64,000 bases of DNA from contig NC_092580.1 of assembly GCF_037975245.1 (NCBI RefSeq), positions 15,451,001-15,515,000 of the forward strand. Reading direction: 5' to 3'. Origin of the DNA: Apostichopus japonicus (taxonomy: Eukaryota > Echinodermata > Holothuroidea > Aspidochirotida > Stichopodidae). A program made the translations under genes and the position numbers. The notes beneath the pieces are model-generated. The model had not been told where the DNA came from. It was given only the letters and a program-made list of their open reading frames with translations, and made no database searches. This document shows, piece after piece, positions 17,934 through 60,024 of the stretch; within the stretch, counting starts at the first letter, position 1, and every line of letters starts with the position of its first letter.

Positions 17934-40140
<22,207 letters not shown>

Positions 40141-51343: not shown

Positions 51344-54300
51344 TCATAAAACATCTAGTGGAAGTACTCTGCCTTTTAACCTGGATGGTAAGCAGACACC
51401 GCAATAGCCACCGCAGTGACCTCGTATCAATTGGTTTGACTGGGAAAAAGAAGACGAACATTGAAACTGCTGAGCGACTGACTTTAGTGCTATATCATAT
51501 GCTTATGTTATTATATGAATATGTAATTAGTGATTCTATTTGATTCTCTCTTCGTTGCATCATCCAAGGTAGTTTTCCTGACCACTATTTATCACTTTCT
51601 TTCTTTCTTCTCTCCATCCCTTGTCTACTAATCCCATTACATCTATCTCTTTGTGTTCACCATGCTCATTAACCTGTCTGTATTCTGTGCATGTTTTTGT
51701 CACGTCTGTTACTGTCACTTGTCAGGTAGCCTCTGAAGAAGATCCTGCTAGAATGGAAACGTCAGGCCAACTTACTTTTGCACATTCTCCTACACAGGCT
51801 CTCTAGTGGATAAGCAGTTTGCTAACAGTTTTATTGTATTTTTATTTTCACTATTTATCACATGTAAAAACACAGAATTATACAAATTTTGTGACTTTCC
51901 TTCACATCTTGAAATATCAATGAACTAGGCAAATAAATGAAAGGACTTTAGAAAAAGATAACATTAACAGAATTTTTTAAGTTTATTTAGTTTATTTTTA
52001 TTTTTATTATTTGCTGCTTATACTTGTGTGAAAGTAGGCAGGCAGGGTAAGAATTTTCTAATGTATGAAATTTGTTTCTTTCTCGAGGATATTTGATAAG
52101 TGTTAGAACCGTCATTACATCCACCATAGACTTGATGGTGACTTGCTAGTGTCTTGTACGACTATATAGACTTGTAAGGCTATATGAACATGTGTTGATA
52201 GGCCAAGTTTAAGGCTGAAAAGTCATGTATGTATGTATTATAGATCCTATACTGCAAGCAGGAACTGGCGAAGAAGCCATCATTGGCTTATCAAAGCCGC
52301 AAGCTGAGCGAAGTCAGTCTCTTAGATTCATATATTTAACGTCCACGAATATGAATTGTCAATTGTCAACAACTCTGTAACTGGACAACATATATCAATC
52401 TTGGAGTGGCTTTATGACTGAAAGTCATATAGGGTGATATGGGCATGAACAGACCATACGTGGCTAGAATGTCATGTAGAACTTTAAGTACAGCTATACG
52501 GTCATGTACGGCAATTTGGGCATGTACAGACCATGTAATACCACATTTACGATATGGTCACATATGGTGATATGGGCATGAACAGACCATATGGGCATGG
52601 GCAGGTATATTGGCATGTACTACCATAAATGGGCATTGACAGCTGCTATGAGGGCATCTATTAGCTGCTATATGAGCTTACCTCTGCGGTATCTATTGTT
52701 TTGGATACAGCATAACCCTGTGTAGTCCATTCAGCCTCTGAACTTATTGTAAACCCTGTATCCCTAAGGTTGATTCGGAAGTTTCCCTGAGGGCAGTTTT
52801 CCGCACTGTAGCAGTCTCCTGCCGTAGCAAACGGGACAAACACCCCGTTGCGAACTCTGGCAAAGGTACTATCCGTGGCTGTGGGATGAAACAGAAAATT
52901 AAACGTTTAATAGTCATCTTAAGGGTTGCCATGCATATTATGGTAGCAACGTGATCACATGTTCTCTACTAAGTACAAGACAGCCAGTGCTTAAAACTGC
53001 AATTCAAAGTAATAACACTACCATTATAGGGTTCCATGACACTAATGTTATAGGGTTCCTTGACAATACCATTATAGGGTTCATTGACACTAACATTATA
53101 GGGTTCCTTGACAGTACCATTATAGGGTTCCATGACACTAACGTTATAGGGTTCCATGACAATACCATTAAAGGGTTCATTGACACTAACATTATAGGGT
53201 TCCTTGACAGTACCATTATAGGGTTCATTGACACTAACATTATAGGGTTCCTTGACAATACCATTATAGGGTTCCATGACACTAACGTTATAGGGTTCCA
53301 TGACACTAACATTATAGGGTTCCATGACACTAACATTATAGGGTTCCTTGACAATACCATTATAGGGTTCATTGACACTAACATTATAGGGTTCCTTGAC
53401 AGTACCATTATAGGGTTCCATGACACTAACGTTATAGGGTTCCATGACAATACCATTATAGGGTTCCATGACACTAACGTTATAGGGTTCCTTGACAATA
53501 CCATTATAGGGTTCATTGACACTAACATTATAGGGTTCCTTGACAGTACCATTATAGGGTTCCATGACACTAACGTTATAGGGTTCCATGACAATACCAT
53601 TATAGGGTTCCATGACACTAACGTTATAGGGTTCCTTGACAATACCATTATAGGGTTCATTGACACTAACATTATAGGGTTCCTTGACAGTACCATTATA
53701 GGGTTCCATGACACTAACGTTATAGGGTTCCATGACAATACCATTATAGGGTTCCATGACACTAACGTTATAGGGTTCCTTGACAATACCATTATAGGGT
53801 TCATTGACACTAACATTATAGGGTTCCATGACAATACCATTAAAGGGTTCCTTGACACTAACATTATAGGGTTCCTTGACAGTACCATTATAGGGTTCCA
53901 TGACACTAACGTTATAGGGTTCCATGACAATACCATTATAGGGTTCCATGACACTAACGTTATAGGGTTCCTTGACAATACCATTATAGGGTTCATTGAC
54001 ACTAACATTATAGGGTTCCTTGACAGTACCATTATAGGGTTCCATGACACTAACGTTATAGGGTTCCATGACAATACCATTATAGGGTTCCATGACACTA
54101 ACGTTATAGGGTTCCTTGACAATACCATTATAGGGTTCATTGACACTAACATTATAGGGTTCCTTGACAGTACCATTATAGGGTTCCATGACACTAACGT
54201 TATAGGGTTCCATGACAATACCATTATAGGGTTCCATGACACTAACGTTATAGGGTTCCTTGACAATACCATTATAGGGTTCATTGACACTAACATTATA

Positions 54301-57300
54301 GGGTTCCTTGACAGTACCATTATAGGGTTCCATGACACTAACGTTATAGGGTTCCATGACAATACCATTATAGGGTTCCATGACACTAACGTTATAGGGT
54401 TCCTTGACAATACCATTATAGGGTTCATTGACACTAACATTATAGGGTTCCTTGACAGTACCATTATAGGGTTCCATGACACTAACGTTATAGGGTTCCA
54501 TGACAATACCATTATAGGGTTCCATGACACTAACGTTATAGGGTTCCTTGACAATACCATTATAGGGTTCATTGACACTAACATTATAGGGTTCCATGAC
54601 AATACCATTAAAGGGTTCCTTGACACTAACATTATAGGGTTCCTTGACAGTACCATTATAGGGTTCCATGACACTAACGTTATAGGGTTCCATGACAATA
54701 CCATTATAGGGTTCCATGACACTAACGTTATAGGGTTCCTTGACAATACCATTATAGGGTTCATTGACACTAACATTATAGGGTTCCTTGACAGTACCAT
54801 TATAGGGTTCCATGACACTAACGTTATAGGGTTCCATGACAATACCATTATAGGGTTCCATGACACTAACGTTATAGGGTTCCTTGACAATACCATTATA
54901 GGGTTCATTGACACTAACATTATAGGGTTCCTTGACAGTACCATTATAGGGTTCCATGACACTAACGTTATAGGGTTCCATGACAATACCATTATAGGGT
55001 TCCATGACACTAACGTTATAGGGTTCCTTGACAATACCATTATAGGGTTCATTGACACTAACATTATAGGGTTCCATGACAATACCATTAAAGGGTTCCT
55101 TGACACTAACATTATAGGGTTCCTTGACAGTACCATTATAGGGTTCCATGACACTAACGTTATAGGGTTCCATGACAATACCATTATAGGGTTCCTTGAC
55201 ACTACCATTATAGGGTTCTTTGAAAGGTTCTTCGCTCAGATCAATTCCCATCATGTACGTACTTGTAAATGCCGTAAATATTCCACAAGTAATAGATATT
55301 ATTCAGCCTTTTTATTTTCTGTAAGATCTTGGATGAGGAGCAGAGGCCAACACATCCATTCCCATTAACTTGTTTCCTAATTCAGTATTTTCTTATTTGT
55401 TCCAAAGTACATAATTTCTCAAGTTACTTAATCTACTAAAGTCCTCTCAAAGTTACTCAAGTTCTCAAAAGGGAGTGAGAGATACACCCAACCGCTCTGA
55501 TGTCGACAACATGCTACATTTAACATCTTGTTGGTACCATTCTATTATCATCAATTGCTGGTACAGAAATAAAGGTTAAATCCCAAATTGTTAACCTTCT
55601 TAAAAGTACAATGTTCCTGGTTCTTGCTTTAAGTATAACATTACACAAATAAAGGTTAAATCCCACATTGTTAACTTCCTTGTAAGTACAATTTTACAGT
55701 TTCTTGCCTAAAAGTATAAAATTACTTTTCTGTAATCTCTCTCTCTCTCTGTCACAATCATGTTTTCATTCTATCCAATCAATCACTTGTAAGTCTATCA
55801 GGATTAATTACATCTAAGCCAATGTTTGCCAATGTTTGCCTGGCCCCAGTTATACACAGAATTTAAAAATGGAGCCAATTCTTTTCAGATTCATGAAAGA
55901 AAAACCAAAGAAAATACACATGAATATCAAACATAAAGTTTCTTTTTAGGGTAGAAAAGACACTTACTGATGATTTCTAAGGTAGTTATATTTAGTCGCA
56001 CTTTTGAGAATGTAGTGAGTCCTGCCTCCTGATGACCAGCATTTGTACAGGCACAGGAATCATTTCTCCTGCCTTTGTATGGACATTGCAAAGGGGCTAG
56101 CAATCTGTTATAAAAGAAAGAATTGATATCACTGAAAGTGTTGTACAGGCACAGGAGTCATTCCTTCTCCCTTTGTATGGACATTGCAAAGGGGCTAGCA
56201 ATCTGTAATAAAAGAGAGAATTGATATCACTGAAAGTGTTGTACAGGCACAGGAGTCATTCCTTCTCCCTTTGTATGGACATTGCAAAGGGGCTAGCAAT
56301 CTGTAATAAAAGAGAGAATTGATATCACTGAAAGTGTTCTCAGGCACATGAGTCATTCCTCCTCCCTTTGTATAGACATTGCAAAGGGGTTAGCAATCTG
56401 TTATAAAAGAGAGAATTGATATCACTGAAAGTGTTGTACAGGCACAGGAGTCATTCCTTCTCCCTTTGTATGGACATTGCAAAGGGGCTAGCAATCTGTA
56501 ATAAAAGAGAGAATTGATATCACTGAAAGTGTTCTCAGGCACATGAGTCATTCCTCCTCCCTTTGTATGGACATTGCAAAGGGGCTAGCAATCTGTTACA
56601 AAGGAAATAATTGATATCACTGAAAGTGTTTTCAGGCACACGAGTCATTTCTTCTCCCTTTGTAAGGACATTGCAAAGGGGCTAGCAATCTGTTACAAAG
56701 GAAATAATTGATATCACTGAAAGTGTTTTCAGGCACACGAGTCATTTCTTCTCCCTTTGTATGGACATTGCAAAGGGGCTAGTAATCTGTTATAAAAGAG
56801 AGAATTGATATCAATGAAAGTGTTCTCAGGCACACGAGTCATTCCTCCTCCCTTTGTAAGGACATTGCAAAGGGGCTAGTAATCTGTTATAAAAGAAAGA
56901 ATATATCACTGAATGTGTTGTCAGGCACAGGAATCATTCCTTCTCCCTTTGTATGGACATTGCAAAGGGGCTAGCAATCTGTTACAAAGGAAATAATTGA
57001 TATCACTGAAAGTGTTCTCAGGCACCTGAGATTATTGTTTAAGTTCACTAAAAGACTTTTAATTATATAGACACAAACAACTGACAAAAGTATTGAGTGC
57101 AAGATCATTAACAAATGAAAAAGTTGATTTTCCTTTTTGTTTTTGCATACATCTAGTGATTTCAAAACTGTTACCAGGTTCTTTGTCTTCTTTGGCTATT
57201 AAATGGACAAAACATTTCCTGCTTTCATCAAATGATGGAATCTTTTCATGAATTCATCCCTAGAAAGAAATTAGGTAGTGAAACTGCCGGATACAACGAA

Positions 57301-60024
57301 AAAAATACTTTCAGAACCACTGCTTCTTAATATTATAAGAGATGCATCACTGCTATTAGAAACCGAAAACATTTCGTAAAGCCAAACCTATTCCTTTACT
57401 ATCAACTTATCTCCCGTAAAATAGCAGAAAAGTTAATACAATATACTATTACCTTTTGGAATAAATTTCAGAAAAATTTTCAATATCTTGTGGAAGTGTA
57501 AGAAATTCCTGAGGAGTAGTACTGGACATCTGATGACAGAATATATTGATGAACTGTCCCTTGATTAAGAGTCTGTATTCACCGTCCTCTGATATATTGC
57601 CCAAGTGCTGGAGGTCTTTGCAACTTGATTGCTGGCCTGAAAACATAAAAGAGAAGAACCAAGATGACTGACAAAGAAAGTATCTCAAACCAATAACCAG
57701 TAACCCTATCCCTAACTTATCACCCAGTTCATAAGTTAATGGGCAATACTATATTAACTGCACTTGCAGACAATGACACCTTTGTTAATATAATACAATC
57801 AATCTGCTTTTGGATGAAGACAAAGGTTTTAAATTTTTCTCAACAAAGCTGTACTTTAAATCAAATTTACAACATCAGTCATTAAAATTTGAGCAAGTAA
57901 TTCATTTATAATCTACTAGGAGATGTAGTTAACCAGGAATAAGTATATATTTTTAAGAAGTTCTAAGAGATGAATATTGTTGAACAATTAATCCAAAATG
58001 GGTCGTAAATTCTTGTTTTGGAAATACAGAACATATTAAGAATTGAGGGAAGAGAGACTAGATTTTGTAGCATGAAAAGGATAGGCCTTCAAGCATTCAA
58101 AAAGAATCAGCTTATGAAAAGATTTTGTTCAGAAGACTAGCACTTATAATACTGTCACCAATATTTTCTGTCTGATAGTTGATAAATCTGAATGGCAGAC
58201 GGTCATCTTAAAACAGGGAGATGTTGTAGGTTATACAACTGCATTATAACACTAAGAGCAATGCATACATATTCAAAGAAACATAGCACAAAGTAGTACT
58301 TGGTTTATTACAACACAATTAGGCACACAGCAGCGTTGCCAGGTTAGCGTTTTAAGCACCAAAAATGACCAATTTTGGGTTTCCCAAATTTCATAGGCCG
58401 GAGGAATATGAAACTAGGTCTAGCCAAACAGCATTTTCTTGATTTTTTTTAAGTCATTCATTCCGAATCAAGGTTGGATATAGCCCTACACATCAGTAAA
58501 AGCATTGGGACCTTTCTTGACCACTTTCCACTCCATATTGTTTATCTAATAGACCCCAAATTGCCACGAGTTACAAAACCACTTACTTCCTACTTATATG
58601 CAGGGTCAATTGTTATATAACAACAACCAATTACATATTTGGTTCATTCCACCCCCACCCCCCCTCTCGAAATCAGCTTCTAATTTGGCCGGTTGCACCA
58701 CAGAATAAAAATGGCAACCGCCCCACACAGGCTGCAACATTTAAACTTCTGATATCTATTTAAGATGAGAGTGTTCCTTGCACGGCTTCAAGTACTATGT
58801 ACTTACAGGCTCGTAGAGTACAATCCCTGGTTGTGATTGGTTTGATTGCTGGTACCCGACAGCTATCTTCTGATGTTCGTGAACCGTACCTATCTTGGCA
58901 TTCAACCTGCCTTATCTGAGTACCAAGACCACAGGTAGCTGAGCACTGCAAAGAAGAATGGTGCAAAAAGGTAGAGTCAAAACCACAGAGAATGGTGCAA
59001 AAAGGTAGAGTCATAACCACAGATAATGGTGCAAAAAGGTATAGTCAATAACACAGAGAATGGTGCCAAAGGGTATAGTCAATACCACAGAGAATGGTGC
59101 CAAAGGGTATAGTCAATACCACAGAGAATGGTACAAAAAGGTAGAGTCAAAACCACAGAGAATGTTGTAAAAAGGTAGAGTCAAAACCACAGAGATCTTT
59201 TCTGGACATGTATGAATATATTGGAGAAGGATTAGGGAGGAGGGGGTAGGAGGGGCATAGGCTGTTTGTAGTGGGAAGGGTGCCATTATGTCAACGTACA
59301 CGAGTGATGTAATATTGGCACACACAGGGGAAATCGTTTAGATTTTCTTTTGTTTCTCGTTTCATATTTGTATATTTATTTGAACAGTGTCGACAAACTT
59401 GATACTGAAGTCAATGCCAGTTTTTTTTTTATTTTAATAAGCTTCAACAATTTATTTTCAGCATTTGCAAAGAAAAAAATCCACTTAAAGTTAAAGCATA
59501 TGTGGATGTCACATTTCGACACTTAGACTTTAAAACTTGTCCATCTTCTGGAAGAAACATTAAAACGGTAATACTTTCCAAAAAGGAATAAGATTTTTTC
59601 TTAACTGTTTGGTGCAGTTGTTCTTCCCAAGTTTACCGATGATGACTGTAGGGATTGCTTCTCTTTAAGTGTCTTATCTTTCGAACAATGCTATCCATTT
59701 AAAGTCATAAATAGACAACTATCACAACTTGAATGTACTTCAGCATAGGCCTACGTTGCTTACATCATAGTAACATGATGTCAGACTATCTTCATGTATG
59801 AAAGCTCATGACTCTCCAAAGATCTAATGTCTTACCAGTGACCATGCTCCGGTGACCCATGCGGCATCATCTTCGCAGCCTCCTAGATTACAGCTCTGTT
59901 GTAACGTGGGCTTGATGGACTCATCACATATATCTGCCTCACCAGGGATTAACCAACCTTCCTCGCTGACAGCCTGACATATAACCTGCCTGACTTGTAT
60001 CCCAGCGTTACATGTTCTGGAGCA
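51344..60024 (-). CDS. ADAMTS9/20 (GON-1)-type protease, C-terminal part
   Basis: Secreted matrix metalloprotease family with a C-terminal GON domain. Only the 3' end is in the window. Exons: 60024-59836, 58945-58807, 57636-57453, 56104-55968, 52878-52682 and 51439-51344. They total 942 nt, exactly 313 codons plus TGA, with all phases matching. Exons 1-2 encode thrombospondin type-1 repeats: CSRTC...CQAVSEEG...C...C, then [25 protein letters not shown] fits the O-fucosylation motif; CSRTCN lacks its glycine. Exons 3-6 encode the GON domain: [56 protein letters not shown] and [10 protein letters not shown] near the end. The domain is characteristic of C. elegans GON-1 and vertebrate ADAMTS9/ADAMTS20. 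Upstream TSR, catalytic and propeptide exons must lie past 64000. Introns carry a minisatellite and a partial-exon array. Confidence 0.93.
51720..51845. repeat. Dispersed repeat, third copy
   Basis: GCCTCTGAAGAAGATCCTGC, AACGTCAGGCCAACTTAC and GTGGATAAGCAGTTTGCT are shared, in order, with 37150-37262; the first part is the reverse complement of 4086-4141. It is in the last ADAMTS intron. Confidence 0.75.
52425..52675. repeat. Degenerate GGGCATG repeat
   Basis: GTGATATGGGCATGAACAGA occurs at about 52434 and 52570, with intermediate diverged copies such as TTGGGCATGTACAGACCATG. It ends a few bases from the 5' splice site of the GON exon 52682-52878. Confidence 0.65.
53011..55219. repeat. 24-bp minisatellite with 144-bp higher-order repeat
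   Basis: About 92 copies of a 24-bp unit (core TTATAGGGTTCCATGACA). Five variant classes are ordered into a six-unit, 144-bp higher-order repeat. The GGGTTCATTGAC variant recurs every 144 bp, expanded to 192 bp at two or three points where an AAAGGG variant is inserted. The period is a multiple of 3, so long open frames occur on both strands; they are not genes. It lies in an ADAMTS intron. Confidence 0.95.
55567..55735. repeat. Tandem duplication, ~80 bp
   Basis: Two diverged copies begin AATAAAGGTTAAATCCCA and each contains AAGTATAA(C/A)ATTAC at its end. It is in the ADAMTS intron upstream of exon 55968-56104. Confidence 0.7.
56043..57035. repeat. 98-bp tandem array copying the 5' part of a GON exon
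   Basis: Ten copies of a 95-98-bp unit. The first (56043-56104) is the genuine first 62 nt of the GON exon plus its 3' splice site. Nine further copies extend upstream into the intron. On the - strand each repeat has the acceptor (TTATTACAG or TTGTAACAG), then codons for [16 protein letters not shown], then about 36 nt of intron. None has an evident 5' splice site. Confidence 0.9.
58957..59194. repeat. 34-bp tandem repeat next to a splice acceptor
   Basis: Exactly seven 34-bp units (core AATGGTGCAAAAAGGTAGAG, then TCAAAACCACAGAG). The array starts 11 bp upstream of the AG of the TSR exon 58945-58807, so the polypyrimidine tract region is made of repeat. Confidence 0.85.

Follow-up and report, generated by a model that had tools for sequence, protein, structure and literature searches.

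Silent Variation among Tandem Decoy Copies of a GON Exon Boundary in Apostichopus japonicus

In a GON-domain gene of the echinoderm Apostichopus japonicus, the 3′ splice junction of one exon is preceded by nine tandem partial copies of itself, and these decoys differ almost only in ways that are silent in the protein. Arrays of this kind, tandem units that straddle an intron-exon boundary and have been termed mirages, are known from amphioxus; we found no earlier account of the silent character of the differences, a pattern unlike that expected of free decoys. From the variant pattern, its mosaicism, and a simulation, we infer, at roughly even chances, a mirage-type array in which sequence often passes between the units and the working exon, with selection on that exon filtering all copies.

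A tandem array ahead of a GON exon

The locus lies in a 64-kb stretch of contig NC_092580.1 (positions 15,451,001 to 15,515,000; here, the window), to which coordinates refer unless a contig is named. The original prediction had assigned the exon concerned to a GON domain, and profile searches bear this out. The Pfam GON family (PF08685) matched the open frame containing the upstream exon (184 nt, 57453..57636, minus strand; acceptor AG/GCC, donor AAG/GTAATA at 57452, both placed by site scores and frame) with 63.3 bits, and the working exon (137 nt, phase 2, 55968..56104, minus strand; donor TCA/GTAAGT at 55967) with 49.8 bits. When these are joined to the third GON exon (52682..52878, minus strand; donor GAG/GTAAGC at 52681), the three segments (57636-57453, 56104-55968, and from 52878) give one continuous GON domain of 212.3 bits, far over the gathering score of 22.6 and spanning profile positions 2-168 of 199.

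Across the genome, PF08685 matches these three exons only, making this the sole GON-domain gene found; a second GON gene was accordingly rejected as a source of the variation. Of the nine ADAMTS spacer matches in the genome, one is found on this strand ∼50 kb upstream, and TSP_1 matches are located at C20:15546596 and C20:15562203. Because the GON domain is accompanied by the upstream spacer and TSP_1 matches, we take the gene to be ADAMTS9/20 or GON-1-like. With the GON domain as query, neither solved structures (by sequence, E up to 1) nor NCBIfam returned a match, and a Pfam search with a decoy stretch by itself (56538-56681) likewise came back empty at E up to 0.1.

Two side observations concern other contigs. 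TSP_1 matches also occur in regular tandem at G000:C11:1306634-1310912 (plus strand; eleven matches, steps of 316-447 nt) and at G000:C23:1130126-1132113 (minus strand; four matches, steps of ∼460 nt or twice that), which suggests tandem arrays of TSP exons or domains. Separately, COX1 is broken into successive pieces, with a further partial piece, at G000:C29:14745-16086 and 30842-31219 (minus strand), besides a full COX1 on contig C35; the C29 pieces are either mitochondrial sequence copied into the nucleus or a contig holding a fragment of the mitochondrial genome. The C35 COX1 is free of stops under genetic codes 5 and 9, and code 9 gives Asn at positions where Asn is conserved, which suggests an echinoderm.

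The array itself is real and has the anatomy first described. On the minus strand it forms one tandem array at 56043-57025, with 10.1 copies of 97 nt at 92% matches according to TRF, so that the array was correctly placed while its proposed upper limit of 57035 lay ∼10 nt too far. Nine decoy units, c1 to c9 (56105..56978, minus strand), follow one another with lengths of 95, 97, 97, 97, 97, 98, 97, 98, and 98 nt and minus-strand starts at 56978, 56883, 56786, 56689, 56592, 56495, 56397, 56300, and 56202. Directly after the ninth unit, whose intron end provides the working acceptor, the working exon begins at 56104 as the tenth exon copy, terminated by its donor. At the other end, a partial first unit (c0, 56979..57025, minus strand, up to the TRF limit) contributes a junction remnant and the intron end that supplies c1 with its acceptor.

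Each of c1 to c9 comprises the first 57-62 nt of the GON exon, a junction, and then ∼36 nt of intron end. The acceptor and first 62 nt of the exon had been proposed to be copied nine more times: the nine copies are there, and exon identity extends to 62 nt only in c6, c8, and c9, ending after 57 nt in c1-c5 and c7, where the junction reads TGA. The coding sequence is indeed largely intact, eight of the nine decoys encoding the exact same 19-residue peptide and c7 carrying two amino-acid changes. Both the alignment and a 195-nt period in TRF reveal c5-c6 and c7-c8 as a two-unit higher-order repeat. A search of the 671.6-Mb assembly with a 25-nt core pattern returned 10 matches, all within the array (further copies could be hidden in masked stretches), and a reversed 25-nt control pattern returned none; array copies elsewhere in the assembly were discarded as a candidate on this basis.

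It is extremely improbable that the copies were created or miscounted in assembly. The array is known here from one assembly, and one amphioxus mirage was apparently misassembled in a draft genome (PMC3087553). Against this, the units differ mutually at many sites, the array is <1 kb, and the frame-specific silent variants described below would not arise from assembly error.

Ten acceptors and one donor

Scored with generic frequency tables rather than tables trained on this genome, so that small differences mean little, the ten array acceptors reach 5.23-7.23, with the working acceptor at 6.01 and three decoy acceptors higher, at 7.23. They make up ten of the top twelve among the 114 AGs in 55900-57700, and only 1.4% of the 3462 minus-strand AGs in the window, array acceptors counted in, score ≥5. 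By these tables the decoys score as well as the real site, in keeping with the earlier view that each copied acceptor is still plausible. That no copy has an evident donor also held: the best GT in 56105-56978 scores −2.39, compared with 1.69 at the donor of the working exon and 3.78 at that of the upstream exon, leaving no donor-like GT among the nine units. The partial first unit does contain CAG/GTGCCT at 57025, with a score of 1.14, but this site lies upstream of all ten acceptors.

When read through to the real donor, all nine decoys meet a premature stop 129-953 nt before it. The expected in-frame TAG of the next copy ends translation in c6, c8, and c9 (95 residues); the other six, c1-c5 and c7, stop earlier, where the TGA of the junction leaves 79 residues in the chosen frame. 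The usual rule for decay targeting requires 50-55 nt, and neither AATAAA nor ATTAAA occurs in the array or onward down to 55900. Because of these stop positions and the missing AATAAA/ATTAAA motifs, decoy-spliced transcripts would be candidates for decay, which seems likelier than the truncated secreted isoforms originally considered. Exonisation of the units as separate exons is unlikely since they carry no donor.

Could the decoys then have been kept because their acceptors are used, the early-stop transcript being degraded, or a short GON domain produced, to tune output? The strength of the ten acceptors, three of which beat the real site, and the stop behind every decoy fit this proposal, which we still regard as improbable. 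A decay-targeted transcript needs no kept amino acids, yet the pattern of variation is at the codon level; the array contains no donor-like GT and no AATAAA/ATTAAA; and RT-PCR suggested that amphioxus mirages do not interfere with regular splicing (PMC3087553).

Other known arrangements describe the array only in part. Tandem (mutually exclusive) exon duplication likewise places repeated exon sequence in one intron, whereas the GON-exon units lack the exon 3′ part and the donor, each holding at most 62 of the 137 exon nt. All nine decoys resemble a poison exon or pseudo-exon in introducing a premature stop when read to the real donor, but none has the donor of its own that would make it a skippable cassette. 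With acceptors spaced 95-98 nt apart, the array also differs from NAGNAG-type tandem acceptors.

Variation confined almost entirely to silent positions

Over the 55-nt coding part before the junction, the ten copies show 10 variant states, 8 of them synonymous in the true frame. Every one of the seven states shared by two copies or more is synonymous; of the three private states, the exon's is silent, and c7 has the other two, both nonsynonymous. Conditional on the transition/transversion counts, the probability of such an excess is 9e-4 for 8/10, 4e-3 for the 7/9 states seen in decoys, and 8e-5 for the 7/7 shared states, values that derive from only 10 variants in one assembly and from a shared/private split chosen after seeing the variants. 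A transition weight of 8 raises them to 5e-3, 1.1e-2, and 6e-4, respectively, and over transition weights of 1 to 8 the value for 7/7 spans 3e-5 to 6e-4. The 2×2 contrast of shared and private states is not significant (about 0.07, by hand calculation). Mean pairwise difference among the ten copies amounts to 0.233 per synonymous versus 0.0094 per nonsynonymous site.

Among the sense frames, the excess is specific to the true one: either of the others renders 0/7 of the same shared variants synonymous. Of the antisense frames, two give 0/7 and one gives 4/7, which tells against our reading. Two further arrays of the window served for comparison. One, a 48-nt array of 46 copies at 53015-55223, in the intron that follows within this gene, has three frames that are stop-free over ∼735 codons; it is probably not coding because no frame tested makes more than 1 of the 6-7 shared variants silent (1/7, 1/6, and 0/7 in frames with few stops). 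The other, a 33-nt array of ∼88 copies with 91% matches at 29429-32326, yielded 4/9 and 2/9 in frames with few stops, based on the 52 and 53 of 87 units that were in register, the remainder having been dropped. A column-phase count over whole units, cruder than the codon test and applied only to arrays with at least four copies, put 5/7 shared variants of the 48-mer in one phase and 9/18 for the GON-exon array; at most 1 of the phase-biased 48-mer variants is synonymous in the frames tested.

These results bear on the simplest alternative, an ordinary neutral boundary-straddling minisatellite whose silent excess is due to chance or local mutation bias. Five arrays with units ≥33 nt and at least six copies, the GON-exon array included, are present in the 64-kb window, and one of them would therefore be expected to straddle a splice junction occasionally; moreover, there are only 10 variants. 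We nevertheless consider neutrality unlikely, although a real contender, given P values of 3e-5 to 1.1e-2 depending on subset (8/10, 7/9 decoy states, 7/7) and transition weight, an excess that is found in the true frame and is absent from the other two sense frames, and two control arrays without such an excess.

The divergence of individual units can be set against the changes open to them. Single changes possible in the exon part number 127 nonsynonymous and 38 silent, or about three for each silent one. Unit c2 differs from the exon by 6 silent and 0 nonsynonymous changes, where ∼10 nonsynonymous ones would be expected had it been free since the split, for which reason selection at the codon level seems to have acted on the decoy lineages during the greater part of their history. 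We rejected a strict time series, with the exon shedding copies that then evolve freely: assuming equal rates and an equal split of the silent differences, it predicts 5-10 nonsynonymous changes per branch, and there are 0 in each of c1-c6. The decoys either are translated, with no donor or sensible product apparent, or pass through the working exon.

RNA structure offers a further explanation, namely, that the purine-rich exon segment pairs with the next polypyrimidine tract and so hides acceptors. Of the decoys, c9 and c3 were folded, and in both minimum-energy structures these segments are paired (z of −1.4 and −2.4); among the ten acceptors, the working one shows the least pairing. Exact 7-bp inverted arms, CCCTTTG and CAAAGGG, stand just past the acceptor in all nine decoys and fold as a hairpin in the two that were folded; in the working exon the outermost pair of these arms is broken. 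All the same, we hold a structural constraint to be very improbable. Native combinations of exon and tail gave no clear gain in stability over permuted ones, 7.3% of permutations being as good, and the hairpin was rejected as the cause of the silent pattern on this test. In addition, the tail of c9 is the working acceptor, yet it forms the same helix, and a helix does not predict change at third positions only.

Proposed exchange between decoys and the working exon

If decoy sequence passes through the exon, the silent variants should be reshuffled among units. Of 21 silent-site pairs, 10 display all four combinations of states, and 37G of the exon recurs in c2, c5, and c7, its 40A in c3 and c4, and its 46T in c1, as would be expected from sequence moving between units and exon. 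Recurrent silent mutation can also produce four-combination pairs.

We propose the following course of events. The mirage-like minisatellite would have been founded when a segment across the 3′ splice junction of a single GON exon was duplicated in tandem. As its letters read, only the last unit is joined to the remainder of the exon and a donor, forming the working exon, and the nine upstream units are decoys from which any splicing would end in a premature stop. Conversion and unequal exchange would often carry sequence between decoys and working exon, so that a damaged decoy would sooner or later be written into the exon and removed by selection. The whole array would then evolve like coding sequence, as one enlarged pool of silent variants.

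Whether such filtering can work was explored with a population model that placed selection solely on the last copy, taking the shared nonsynonymous/synonymous per-site ratio as the readout. Local unequal crossing-over with selection produced ratios of 1.04, 0.98, 0.80, and 0.41 at scaled rates of 1, 5, 20, and 60, and 0.46 at rate 20 with a lower mutation rate; without selection, ratios were 0.91-1.62. Because unequal crossing-over alone gives 0.41-1.04 with selection, it was rejected as too weak, and the explanation has to suppose frequent conversion. With conversion allowed between any two units, the ratio under selection was 0.87, 0.56, 0.30, and 0.09 at scaled rates of 0, 20, 100, and 240 (the last setting also had doubled mutation), as opposed to 0.87 (rate 100) and 0.82 (rate 240) without selection.

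Arrays as clean as the observed one were nonetheless few in this model. Of 24 arrays per setting, drawn from eight runs and so not independent, two in each of the two highest conversion settings with selection combined 0 shared nonsynonymous with at least three shared synonymous variants, and none did so in the other four of the six settings. With selection at the highest setting, arrays averaged 2.6 shared nonsynonymous, 8.6 shared silent, and 3.9 private variants of each type; the observed array has 0 shared nonsynonymous, 7 shared silent, 2 private nonsynonymous, and 1 private silent. Its intron half, with 5 shared variants in 36 columns versus ∼16 simulated, is likewise less variable than the model. 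In the model, then, exchange can do what is asked of it, but high rates are needed, and the observed array is cleaner than the simulated average.

Relation to known systems and significance

One earlier study reportedly found a minisatellite that multiplies splice donors; it shares the multiplication of splice sites with the GON-exon array, where acceptors are multiplied instead. A mirage in amphioxus Adh3 is said to have been described by Canestro et al. in 2002 (NAR 30:2871). The closest comparison is the amphioxus globin gene BflGb6, in which minisatellite-like tandem duplications comprise the 3′ end of an intron and the 5′ part of exon 2; such mirages are present in other amphioxus genes too, and a role in intron gain has been proposed for them (PMC3087553). 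The GON-exon array has the same makeup, in another gene and in an echinoderm, with tandem units spanning an intron-exon boundary beside the authentic exon and head-to-tail repeats within the roughly 10-100 nt of a minisatellite or VNTR. On these structural grounds it is a mirage-type minisatellite. Splice signals are kept in many units of both arrays, BflGb6 units being 81-100% identical; the differences are in unit length (150-160 bp in BflGb6 versus 95-98 nt) and unit number (6 and 3 in BflGb6 versus nine).

The amphioxus data speak to exchange in two ways. Mirage length is unstable there, one gene having 6 units in one haplotype and 3 in another, which by analogy would count for exchange in general. 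Amphioxus mirages also show concerted evolution from which the boundary units of the cluster are excluded, and this exclusion in BflGb6 argues against the frequent exchange with the end unit that our reading requires (PMC3087553). The known description of mirages leaves the silent-only variation of decoys unexplained, and the word "synonymous" is absent from that report. In the literature searched we found no description of such variation, without claiming its absence from print.

For the array as a whole, frequent exchange with the working exon under selection on that exon remains the reading to which we assign an even chance. Somewhat short of that, we tentatively put forward that purifying selection can act indirectly on untranslated partial exons through a constant trade of sequence between the array and the working exon. 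The approximately ten copies would then behave as one coding-sequence pool, with silent diversity at this exon enlarged several-fold and damaging variants purged even from copies that are never translated.

The locus extends the mirage structure described in amphioxus to an echinoderm, and it constitutes a natural test of 3′ splice site choice, with ten near-identical acceptors and a complete exon plus donor behind the last only. If the exchange reading is true, conversion between repeat and exon would be directly measurable at this locus, and a codon-level signature of selection would not prove translation, which would matter for calling exons and pseudo-exons by conservation.
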